Source: Stutzerimonas stutzeri (GTDB lineage Bacteria; Pseudomonadota; Gammaproteobacteria; Pseudomonadales; Pseudomonadaceae). From it: 64,000 nucleotides of DNA. Below the pieces are notes generated by a model that ran no database searches, was not told the DNA's origin, and worked only from the letters and a program-made list of their open reading frames with translations. The stretch's first letter is position 1. The number at the start of each line of letters is the position of its first letter. The stretch covers positions 1 through 64,000 of the forward strand of contig NZ_JAMOII010000008.1 in the NCBI RefSeq assembly GCF_024448985.1, given 5' to 3'. Shown here piece after piece: positions 6,953 to 10,282 of the stretch. Position numbers and translations under genes: made by a program.

Positions 6953-7852
6953 ATGAATCGCTGGGAAGGTCTCGACGAATTCGTCGCCGTCGCCGAATGC
7001 GGCAGCTTCATGCGAGCCGCCGAGCAATTGCGGGTATCGTCCTCTCACGTCAGCCGCCAGGTGGCGCGCCTCGAAGAGCGCTTGCAGGCCCGCCTGCTCT
7101 ACCGCACCACGCGCCGCGTCTCGCTGACCGAGGCAGGGCATACCTTTCTTTCCCGTTGCCAGCGCTTGATCGAAGAGCGCGACGAAGCCTTCCATGCCAT
7201 CGGTGACCTGCACGCGGCTCCCACCGGGCTACTGCGCATGACCGCTGCCGTGGCTTACGGCGAGCGCTTCATCGTGCCGCTGGTGAACGAGTTCATGGCG
7301 CAGCATCCGCAATTGCGGGTCGAGATCGAGCTGTCCAACCGCACCCTGGACTTGGTGCAGGAGGGCTTCGATCTGGCCATACGCTTGGGCCGGCTCAGCG
7401 AATCGCGGCTTGTGGCAACCCGCATCGCGCCGCGGGCCATGTACCTGTGTGCCGCGCCGGCCTACCTCGAACGCTACGGGCGCCCGCACACGCTTTCCGA
7501 ACTGGCGCGGCACAACTGCCTGGTGGGCACGGGCGATAGCTGGATGCTGCAGGTCGATGGCCGTGAGCAACCGTTCAAACCCAGCGGCAATTGGCGTTGC
7601 AACAGCGGCCAGGCGGTACTGGACGCCGCCCTGCGCGGCTTCGGGCTGTGTCAGTTGCCGGATTACTACGTGCAGGAGCCGCTGCGCCGAGGTGAGCTGG
7701 TGTCGCTGCTGGAAGCCAATCAGCCACCCAATACCGCCGTCTGGGCCGTCTACCCGCAGCGCCGCTATCCGCTGCCAAAGGTGCGCCTGCTGATCCAAGC
7801 ATTGAAGCAAGGCCTGGCCAGTCGCCCGGAATACCGCAGCGGACGCAACTGA
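6953..7852 (+). CDS. gfnR: LysR-family regulator of formaldehyde detoxification (GfnR-like)
   Basis: A 299-residue LysR-type regulator. The N-terminal helix-turn-helix spans roughly residues 3-62 (AECGSFMRAAEQLRVSSSHVSRQ); a LysR substrate-binding domain follows, with the subfamily segment EGFDLAIRLG near residue 145. It is divergent from adhC, the position of gfnR (PA3630) in P. aeruginosa, which activates the glutathione-dependent formaldehyde pathway. The symbol rests on position and family membership. The start has an AGGAGTCC ribosome site. Confidence 0.85.
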   Translation: MNRWEGLDEFVAVAECGSFMRAAEQLRVSSSHVSRQVARLEERLQARLLYRTTRRVSLTEAGHTFLSRCQRLIEERDEAFHAIGDLHAAPTGLLRMTAAVAYGERFIVPLVNEFMAQHPQLRVEIELSNRTLDLVQEGFDLAIRLGRLSESRLVATRIAPRAMYLCAAPAYLERYGRPHTLSELARHNCLVGTGDSWMLQVDGREQPFKPSGNWRCNSGQAVLDAALRGFGLCQLPDYYVQEPLRRGELVSLLEANQPPNTAVWAVYPQRRYPLPKVRLLIQALKQGLASRPEYRSGRN

Positions 7853-7983
7853 GGTGCTACGGCGCCGCGCGTCTGACTGCCTATTTCGGGAGGAACCCGC
7901 CTCCGTAGGCCACGTCGATATTGTGTAGCCGGTGCCCTTTGCGTTTGCCTGGAGCTACCCGGCGATTCAATCAGGAGGACATC

Positions 7984-8298
7984 ATGCAGATTCTGGTGAA
8001 CAGCAATCACAGCGTCAGCGTAACCAGCAACCTCGAGGAGCACGTGAAAGCAACTGTGGAGAGTGAGCTGGAGCGTTTCGATGATCAGCTGACCCGAGTC
8101 GAAGTTCATCTCAACGATGAGAACAGCGGTAAGAGCGGCCCTCAGGACAAGCGTTGTCAGATGGAAGCCCGAGTGAAAGGCCATGAGCCAATTTCGGCCA
8201 CCCACAAGGCGGACTCCATGACGCTCGCCATCGACGGCGCCGCGGAAAAGCTCAACCATGCCTTGGCGCATGCCCTGGACAAACTCAACCATCACTGA
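7984..8298 (+). CDS. short HPF/RaiA-family ribosome hibernation protein
   Basis: A 104-residue member of the S30AE (HPF/RaiA) family, which binds the 30S decoding region in resting cells. The fold is recognisable from MQILVNSNHSVSVTSNLEEHV, a middle beta strand TRVEVHLND, and the C-terminal helix MTLAIDGAAEKLNHALAHAL. It differs clearly from the standard Pseudomonas Hpf usually encoded beside rpoN, so it is probably a second, specialised copy. The ATG at 7984 has a strong CAGGAGG site; a longer in-frame reading from 7921 was rejected. Only 65 bases separate it from the baeRF-family gene downstream, with no obvious terminator, so both are likely one transcript. Confidence 0.88.
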   Translation: MQILVNSNHSVSVTSNLEEHVKATVESELERFDDQLTRVEVHLNDENSGKSGPQDKRCQMEARVKGHEPISATHKADSMTLAIDGAAEKLNHALAHALDKLNHH

Positions 8299-8363
8299 CC
8301 CGTCACGAACCAGGCCGTCAACGCCCGAGGGACCGAACCACCCGACTACGAAAGAGGCCATGC

Positions 8364-9530
8364 ATGAACAGATTGCTCGATCGTGAAACCATGTCCCAGC
8401 TGCTGGCGAAGCGCGAGGCACCCTGCCTGTCGCTGTACCAGCCCACCCACCGCAGCTTTCCCGAGCGCCAGCAAGACCCGATCCGCTTTAAGCATCTGGT
8501 GCGACAGCTCGAAGATTCTCTCAAACAGCAGGGCCGAGGCGATCAGGCCAAATCGCTGCTCGAGCCGTTTTACGCGCTGATCGATGATGTCGATTTCTGG
8601 AACTCCAATCGCGACGGCTTGGCCGTGTTCGGCGCCAAAGACTATTTCGAGGTGTTCCGACTGCAGCGCAACGTGCCGGAGCTGGCGGTCGCTAATGATC
8701 GTATGCACCTTAAGCCGCTGCTGCGCATTGCCCAATCCGCCGATCGTTACCAGATCCTCGCGATAACGCTGGATTCGGTACGCCTGTTCGAAGGCAACCG
8801 TGATGGTGTCGATGAAGTTCCGCTTGCCGACGGCGTACCGAAGACTGTGGAAGAGGCACTTGGCCGCGACCTGACTGAGAAAGGTCAAACAGGATTTCCG
8901 CAAGGTTATAGCCGCGCCAGCGAGCGTGGCGACCCCATGCAGGTTGAAAGCGGCGGGGCCGGGCGACAGGACGAAATCGATCGAGACCGCGAACGCTTCT
9001 TCCGAGAAGTCGATCGCGCCTTCCTTGAGCATCACAGCCGCAAGACCCGACTGCCGCTGATTCTCGCTGGACTCGCAGAACACCAGTCCCACTTCCGCAA
9101 GCTCAGTCACAACGAGTTTCTGTTACCCGACGGTATCGAAAACGATGTCTCCCTGCTCAGTCGGGACGAGCTGCGAGAAAAGAGTTGGATGGTAATGCAG
9201 CCGCGTTATATCAAACGCCTCGAAGGATTCATCAACCAGTACGGCGAATCGCACGGTCAAGGTCTGGCCACCGATCAGCTCGAACAGATCGGTCAGGCGA
9301 CTCTGGAAGGTCGGGTGGCGACGTTGCTGGTCGAAGCTGATCGCCAGATACCGGGGATGGCGGACAAGCAGGAAGGCAAGGCGATAGCGGTCGACGATGG
9401 GTCAGCCACCACACCCGATCTGCTCGACGAGTTGACGATCTGGACGTTGGAACAAGGCGGCGAAGTGATCTCGGTGCCCACCGAGCGTATGCCAACCGCG
9501 AGCGGCGCGGCGGCGATCTACCGCTACTGA
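8364..9530 (+). CDS. baeRF-family (Balon-type) ribosome hibernation factor candidate
   Basis: A 388-residue protein of the bacterial archaeo-eukaryotic release factor 1-like family (baeRF; relatives include mycobacterial Rv2629 and Balon of Psychrobacter). Family marks are WNSNRDGLAVFGAKDYFEVF at residues 79-98 in the N domain, a middle region with a helical charged stretch (203-225), and the C-terminal domain ending LLDELTIWTLEQGG then VPTERMPTASGAAAIYRY. Balon was described as entering the ribosomal A site with EF-Tu and protecting idle ribosomes. The eRF1 GGQ tripeptide is not present; the glycine-rich GGAGRQ at 197-202 is the nearest resemblance. Pairing with the HPF-like gene supports a hibernation role. 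Start has AGAGG upstream. Confidence 0.8.
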   Translation: MNRLLDRETMSQLLAKREAPCLSLYQPTHRSFPERQQDPIRFKHLVRQLEDSLKQQGRGDQAKSLLEPFYALIDDVDFWNSNRDGLAVFGAKDYFEVFRLQRNVPELAVANDRMHLKPLLRIAQSADRYQILAITLDSVRLFEGNRDGVDEVPLADGVPKTVEEALGRDLTEKGQTGFPQGYSRASERGDPMQVESGGAGRQDEIDRDRERFFREVDRAFLEHHSRKTRLPLILAGLAEHQSHFRKLSHNEFLLPDGIENDVSLLSRDELREKSWMVMQPRYIKRLEGFINQYGESHGQGLATDQLEQIGQATLEGRVATLLVEADRQIPGMADKQEGKAIAVDDGSATTPDLLDELTIWTLEQGGEVISVPTERMPTASGAAAIYRY

Positions 9531-9589
9531 TCAGTCACCGCCACGAAACTGCGAAAGAATCGCGCTTCACGACGCACAGCGCTGCGCAA

Positions 9590-10282
9590 TCACGATTGCC
9601 AGCGCTGCTGCAGCCATTGCAGATCTTCTGGACGCGTGATCTTTAAATTATCTGAGCGCCCTTCTATCAGCCGCGGACTGAATCCCGCCCATTCCAGCGC
9701 GGACGCTTCATCAGTAACGGCTGCACCAGCTTCGAGCGCGTTGGTAAGCGCATCGCGTAACGCCCCGAGGCGAAACATTTGCGGTGTGAAAGCCTGCCAT
9801 ATCACGCTACGGTCGATGGTTTCCACGACTCGTCCGTCGGCACCTGCTCGTTTCAAAGTGTCACGAGCCGGTACGGCGAGTAGCCCGCCGACTGGATCGT
9901 CGCCCAGTTCGGCCAGCAGTTTGTCGAGATCCTGACGCGAGAGATTGGGCCGAGCGGCATCATGCACCAGCACCCAGTCGCCGTCTCGTGCGCCTAGCTC
10001 GGACAGACGATGTAGCCCGGCCAGTACCGAGTCTGCACGTTCGGCGCCGCCGTCAGCGCGTTGAATGCGAGGGTCCTTGGCGCAGTCCAGACTCGCCCAG
10101 TACGGATCATCGGCGGCCAAGCCGACGACCAACCCAAGCAAACCGGGATGGTTGAGAAAACAGCTGAGCGTATGTTCGATGACGCTCTTGCCGGCCAAGG
10201 GCAGGTATTGCTTAGGCCGATCGGCGCGCATGCGGCTACCGACACCGGCAGCCGGTATCACGGTCCAGAACTCCGGGAACAT
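9590..10282 (-). CDS. ispD: 2-C-methyl-D-erythritol 4-phosphate cytidylyltransferase
   Basis: Third MEP-pathway step, transferring CMP to methylerythritol phosphate. The 230-residue protein has the nucleotide-binding start PAAGVGSRMRADRPKQYLPL and the VHDAARP motif near residue 107. It follows ftsB by 8 bases on the minus strand, the usual ftsB-ispD pairing, but its customary downstream neighbour ispF is more than 6 kb away beyond the formaldehyde and hibernation genes. Confidence 0.96.
   Translation of the reverse strand: MFPEFWTVIPAAGVGSRMRADRPKQYLPLAGKSVIEHTLSCFLNHPGLLGLVVGLAADDPYWASLDCAKDPRIQRADGGAERADSVLAGLHRLSELGARDGDWVLVHDAARPNLSRQDLDKLLAELGDDPVGGLLAVPARDTLKRAGADGRVVETIDRSVIWQAFTPQMFRLGALRDALTNALEAGAAVTDEASALEWAGFSPRLIEGRSDNLKITRPEDLQWLQQRWQS

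Follow-up and report, generated by a model that had tools for sequence, protein, structure and literature searches.

Balon-type ribosome hibernation factors, which occupy the A site, are known from cryo-EM of the Psychrobacter and mycobacterial proteins. The baeRF clade was described in 2019, reportedly by Burroughs and Aravind. In its available text that paper gives baeRF families a conserved HPF neighbourhood and suggests that they may act with HPF (PMC6514570), and the S30AE/HPF-baeRF pairing is also in print in the available part of PMC10901736. Here we analyze a 64,000-nucleotide stretch of Stutzerimonas stutzeri DNA (the window), in which an S30AE gene and a baeRF gene stand in tandem on contig C8 of a 4.23-Mb genome. 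A preliminary description, made from the letters of the window, had presented the pair as a two-gene hibernation unit; we likewise consider it probable, by analogy with characterized relatives, that the genes form a hibernation operon of HPF-like and Balon-like factors. Because the neighbourhood has been in print since 2019, neither this central idea nor the pairing is new. What the analysis adds is a conserved footprint before the pair that resembles a stress-type promoter and may tell when the genes are switched on. The elements concerned are:

7984-8298, + strand: S30AE (HPF/RaiA-type) gene, an open reading frame of 104 amino acids with PF02482 and TIGR00741 matches.
8364-9530, + strand: baeRF family 3 (Balon-family) gene, an open reading frame of 388 amino acids.
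7973-7979, + strand: ribosome-binding site AGGAGGA of the S30AE gene, read directly.
7892-7917, + strand: candidate extracytoplasmic function (ECF)-sigma-type promoter GGAACCC-N14-CGTCG, with the proposed -35 at 7892-7898 and the proposed -10 at 7913-7917.
8442-8492, + strand: conserved N-domain block PTHRxxPxxQQDPIRFK (residues 27-43) of the baeRF protein, from alignment with THREHPANDQDPIALK of Balon.

The second protein is of the baeRF type, as had been proposed, and falls into family 3: it scores 154.1 bits against PF18845 (cut-off 31.5) and covers the profile from 1 to 168 of 168. Among solved structures, Balon chain 8rd8_B matches it best (E 9.7e-18, residues 9-388), and the predicted model has a Balon-like fold across its full length, a fold common to eRF1 and Pelota. 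The N-domain block at residues 27-43 may contact the decoding centre, as judged from the alignment, and within it F32-P33 is aligned with the HP of Balon’s THREHP, presumably the HP motif of the Balon paper. A string search found neither GGQ nor NIKS in the window protein, and among 63 aligned baeRF rows GGQ occurs somewhere in seven and NIKS in none. The C-terminal part of the model contains two short strands (330-334 and 339-342), which may or may not correspond to Balon’s beta-hairpin insertion for EF-Tu.

The first protein is an S30AE family member, again as previously assigned, with scores above both family cut-offs (PF02482, 49.9 bits against 23.7; TIGR00741, 51.6 bits against 40.9). Its best PDB match is 7m4z_v (E 1.6e-16, residues 3-103), which the available text of PMC8263017 gives as hpf on the A. 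baumannii 70S ribosome, and by homology to this relative it would bind the 30S subunit of idle 70S ribosomes. The genome holds four S30AE genes and a single baeRF3 gene. One of the other three, on contig C14, is a canonical-looking hpf with neighbours that we take to be rpoN-like and ptsN-like genes, and the earlier remark that the window copy is unlike the usual Hpf is borne out. Two further paralogs, L003 (G000 contig C2) and L004 (contig C18), are ~140 residues long with long C-terminal tails and score 30.7 and 21.2 bits against TIGR00741, below its cut-off.

The gene layout agrees with the first reading of the sequence. The S30AE gene has a strong ribosome site, of which CAGGAG is conserved in 34/34 aligned loci, and 65 bases separate the two genes; the + strand contains no terminator-like site between 7700 and 9700 (one lies on the - strand, against a shuffle mean of 1.7). 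Relative to nine relatives, dN/dS is 0.013-0.082 for the S30AE gene and 0.029-0.141 for the baeRF gene, rough values given that several dS exceed 1, and these low ratios indicate purifying selection on both.

For the survey of adjacency, a match of at least 145 bits to the window S30AE protein was counted as its ortholog, the next matches reaching no more than 124 bits; S30AE genes near baeRF were sought with a custom profile at E <=0.001, which very divergent copies could escape. We found baeRF3 in 50 of the 56 genomes of the genus, with an S30AE gene directly upstream on the same strand in 47 of them. Three genomes have baeRF3 alone, six have neither ortholog, and an S30AE ortholog without baeRF occurs in 0/56 (Fisher p for co-occurrence 2.6e-6, uncorrected for relatedness). 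In the family sample baeRF3 is present in 89/298 genomes. Adjacency is frequent within the genus, but of all 39 baeRF loci that this sample has outside it, only 5 sit next to an S30AE gene on the same strand; they belong to four genera (g4, g14, g15 and g16; these and g5, g6 and g18 are tool labels standing for genus names). The two genes are tied in the genus, where none of the six baeRF-less genomes has the ortholog, but the suggestion that this HPF copy is dedicated to its baeRF partner is weakened by the three unpaired genus genomes and by the unpaired loci outside. Among named baeRF loci, 46 of 77 lie within 500 bases of an S30AE gene on the same strand: this gene is upstream in 34 (28 of the Stutzerimonas group and six others, four of them Planctomycetota) and downstream in 12 (four of Thioalkalivibrio, Ectothiorhodospira or Wenzhouxiangella, Methylotuvimicrobium, and seven Chloroflexota). 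Several of the remaining 31 have short flanks or partial genes.

The footprint accompanies this locus closely. In a 160-base upstream alignment of 34 loci, the GGAACCC and CGTCG blocks stand 14 or 15 bases apart in 33; L154 is the exception, with its motif at a greater distance, 237 bases ahead of the S30AE domain. An exact GGAACCC-N14/15-CGTCGW is found upstream of the baeRF operon, on the same strand, in 49 of the 50 baeRF genomes of the genus, the missing genome (G037) reading GGAACCC-N14-CGTCTGA; in the three genomes that have baeRF alone, the motif is retained in front of baeRF. Outside the genus the footprint is exact at both g4 loci, has one mismatch at the g14 locus, and is exact at three of eight g6 loci, where no S30AE gene lies beside baeRF; the other five g6 loci carry a two-mismatch variant that 29-40 of 200 shuffles also reach. 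In g5, where baeRF lies in other contexts, TGAACTC-N14/15-CGTC followed by N[TA]A is present in 14/14 aligned upstream regions, while a 15th locus outside that alignment (L141) gave only a chance-level match in the scan. Since 13-27 of 200 shuffles reach the single-locus g5 matches, it is the alignment that gives the g5 evidence its weight. The footprint was not found upstream of the paired loci of g15 and g16 (L121 and L148, two of the five paired loci outside the genus), and no exact copy was found in the distant named loci or g18. The genome’s three other S30AE genes also lack it in the 350 bases before them.

GAAC at -35 with CGTC at -10 is characteristic of ECF sigma factors, and we favour, by a modest measure, induction of the pair by such a factor. 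The AlgU consensus is GAACTT-N16/17-TCTNN (PMC7641640). Read as an AlgU-type site, the window footprint becomes GAACCC-N16-TCGAT, in which the spacing fits and three of nine specified bases differ. The g5 sites (GAACTC-N16/17-TC) have the same spacing to TC as the consensus, the consensus TCT is met in two variants (TCTGA in G037 and TCTTA in L145), and the sole exact match of GGAACTT-N14/15-GTCTGA in the genome lies upstream of an rpoH-like gene with the same geometry. AlgU is thus the leading candidate, not a result, and its naming as the inducer is tentative, with odds that we put somewhat below even. A PF04542 search of the genome returned 11 sigma genes, which include SigX, an RpoE equivalog (AlgU), a PRK12537-type gene, two of the FecI type, a SigJ-like gene and one further ECF gene. 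Other ECF consensus sequences, in the available text of PMC12153292 and PMC3597554, do not match the footprint, and the SigX consensus is said to lack precise definition (PMC7641640). More broadly, we give even odds to a reading in which an ECF stress sigma factor, AlgU being the likeliest, acts directly on the gene of the Balon-family factor in several Pseudomonadaceae genera, whether or not the HPF partner is present; envelope stress would then set off A-site hibernation, in addition to starvation or cold. The open-access literature yielded no title on AlgU and ribosome hibernation in Pseudomonas, and nothing on ribosome hibernation in Stutzerimonas. To our knowledge the sigma factors driving Balon-type genes have hardly been studied.

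Other candidates were discarded. No sigma-70-like promoter lies within 7700-9700, and the single Rfam match in 7600-9800 (E 0.63) falls under its gathering score. As for a wider regulon, GGAACCN{14,16}CGTCG has 10 matches in the window’s own genome against 31 in the reversed control; in 15 g5 genomes TTGAACTCN{14,15}CGTC has 24 matches against 13, of which 17 lie away from baeRF. From these counts, footprint sites elsewhere are mostly chance.

Taken together, the locus suggests the following course of events. Judging by the footprint, envelope stress or a general stress would lead an ECF sigma factor, with RpoE-type AlgU as the likeliest, to start transcription ~60 nucleotides before the S30AE gene, and both genes would be read as one transcript. 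By homology, the S30AE protein would settle in the mRNA/tRNA channel of the idle 70S ribosome, on its 30S subunit, and the baeRF protein would fill the A site from the decoding centre to the peptidyl-transferase centre. Like Balon, the baeRF protein would leave peptidyl-tRNA unhydrolysed and might carry EF-Tu-GDP on its C-terminal domain. Balon and RaiA of Psychrobacter occur together on a single ribosome, and this pair might do likewise.

Several observations weigh against this reading. The expected kinship with Balon holds for the family profile and the best structural match, but on the Balon equivalog model NF052287 the protein scores 166.8 bits, full length, under the cut-off of 330 (four of four relatives tested are below it too, at 126.8-197.8 bits). 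Foldseek gives TM-scores to Balon-family chains of only 0.54-0.64 and places the Rv2629 chain eighth, after two archaeal chains, and F replaces H at the presumed HP motif (FP in 19 and HP in 11 of 63 rows). Crude counting gives both proteins of the pair a net negative charge, -14 and -6 (canonical Hpf -2; Balon uncounted), which does not favour rRNA binding. Outside the genus, 34 of 39 baeRF loci lack an adjacent same-strand S30AE gene, a few having short flanks and one carrying such a gene 1.9 kb off on the other strand. A looser pattern gave two matches in the window against a shuffle mean of 1.97, and GGAACCCN{14,15}CGTCGW gave 99 matches in the 56 genomes against 156 in the reversed control, and 50 of these 99 lie at sites other than the operon; because the pattern is not enriched over control, it is the footprint’s place and not its sequence that carries the argument. 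In the proposed -10, moreover, G stands in place of the T of AlgU sites, and further ECF genes besides AlgU are present, with the SigX consensus undefined.

The strongest competitor, which we nevertheless think unlikely, is that the neighbours work apart, as separate hibernation factors under one stress promoter with an S30AE copy interchangeable with the other three. The unpaired baeRF genes of three genus genomes, where the footprint is kept, and of the 34 outside loci speak for it, as do the three other S30AE genes and an S30AE tree that resolves a partner-specific clade for no more than part of the genus; yet no genome of the genus has the S30AE ortholog without baeRF, and the two genes are found together again, in either order, in Planctomycetota, Chloroflexota and other Pseudomonadota. 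A strict S30AE-baeRF partnership is rejected by the same unpaired loci, within the reach of the S30AE profile and of a few short flanks, and on a partner-specific S30AE clade across phyla the tree does not decide (support below 80 on 20 of 29 inner branches, bootstrap unsettled).

A role in rescue or quality control, in which baeRF, in the manner of Dom34/Pelota, would target stalled ribosomes and the S30AE protein would then store those freed, draws on the fold common to eRF1 and Pelota and on the proposal, in the available text of PMC6514570, that the baeRF clade relieves stalled ribosomes or blocks the A site; against the hibernation operon we judge it improbable. Much the least credible is an alternative release factor with catalytic activity, one that would hydrolyse peptidyl-tRNA when the cell is stressed. 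The superfamily is the same, and the catalytic GGQ of eRF1 sits in a middle-domain loop; the corresponding loop of the window protein contains GGAGRQ, a loose echo of it. In three Ectothiorhodospiraceae relatives (L034, L035 and L036, of Thioalkalivibrio and Ectothiorhodospira) a GGQ string stands at the position of window residue 185 inside this loop, by chance or as a catalytic remnant. The window protein itself lacks GGQ, however, its loop 173-199 is modelled at pLDDT <50 and varies among relatives, and most baeRF families are judged inactive in the available text of PMC6514570.

Around the pair, what we take to be a LysR-type regulator gene (6953-7852) precedes it and a convergent, presumably ispD-like gene (9590-10282) follows. 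Since an ispD-like gene also follows baeRF at 12 loci of g4, g6, g14 and g16, part of the family seems to have inherited this location. Elsewhere the surroundings differ: in L034-L037 (Thioalkalivibrio, Ectothiorhodospira, Wenzhouxiangella) baeRF comes first, with 13 bases between domain matches; at seven g5 loci (L116, L134-L138, L144) a gene that we assume to be glutamine-amidotransferase-like precedes baeRF; and a gene similar to it in the window’s own genome (L159, contig C7) has GGAACC-N14-CGTCG 251 bases upstream, through chance or shared regulation. Five g18 loci (L118, L122, L149, L151, L152) have a divergent, presumably RtcB-like gene upstream of baeRF, which agrees with the Balon paper, where an RtcB neighbourhood is mentioned. 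The closest named locus, that of Stutzerimonas stutzeri 28a39, has a baeRF 100% identical in its best segment (residues 1-388). Recent transfer by phage or plasmid was set aside, the matches to 17 plasmid records and one phage record all being below 60% identity. Five Moraxella plasmids (NZ_CP024445.1, AP031474.1, NZ_CP024181.1, NZ_CP068111.1, NZ_CP135141.1) carry baeRF homologues ~26% identical to the window protein, and the unannotated 4,362-base GenBank record OR848657.1 (Listeria phage LM 4-14-1), which may be mislabelled bacterial DNA, matches over 99% of the length at 23.8% identity.

The pairing is thus known, the observation of it here is right, the function is likely and the regulatory lead is testable; the pair offers a genetically simple, Stutzerimonas-type hibernation module. 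If the promoter reading is true, the signal can be named: an ECF stress sigma factor that parks ribosomes by way of a Balon-type factor. Compared with the canonical Hpf of the same genome, the window S30AE protein shares the S30AE domain but scores 26.7 bits on the canonical Hpf model NF007780 (equivalog cut-off 125), where the contig C14 copy reaches 124.7, just below the cut-off; that copy, unlike the pair, has no footprint in its upstream 350 bases. The closest solved relative is instead the A. baumannii hpf of 7m4z_v. With the baeRF clade of PMC6514570 the locus has family and neighbourhood in common, whereas an ECF-type promoter footprint in Pseudomonadaceae finds no mention in the available text of that paper. 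Balon itself (AOC03_06830 family, Psychrobacter urativorans, PDB 8rd8/8rdv/8rdw) shares with the window protein an aeRF1-like fold over the whole length, the THRxxPxxQDPI block and the lack of GGQ and NIKS, at 21% identity in the structural alignment; the window protein differs in falling under the NCBI equivalog cut-off, in having F for H at the presumed HP motif, and in being encoded directly behind an S30AE gene.
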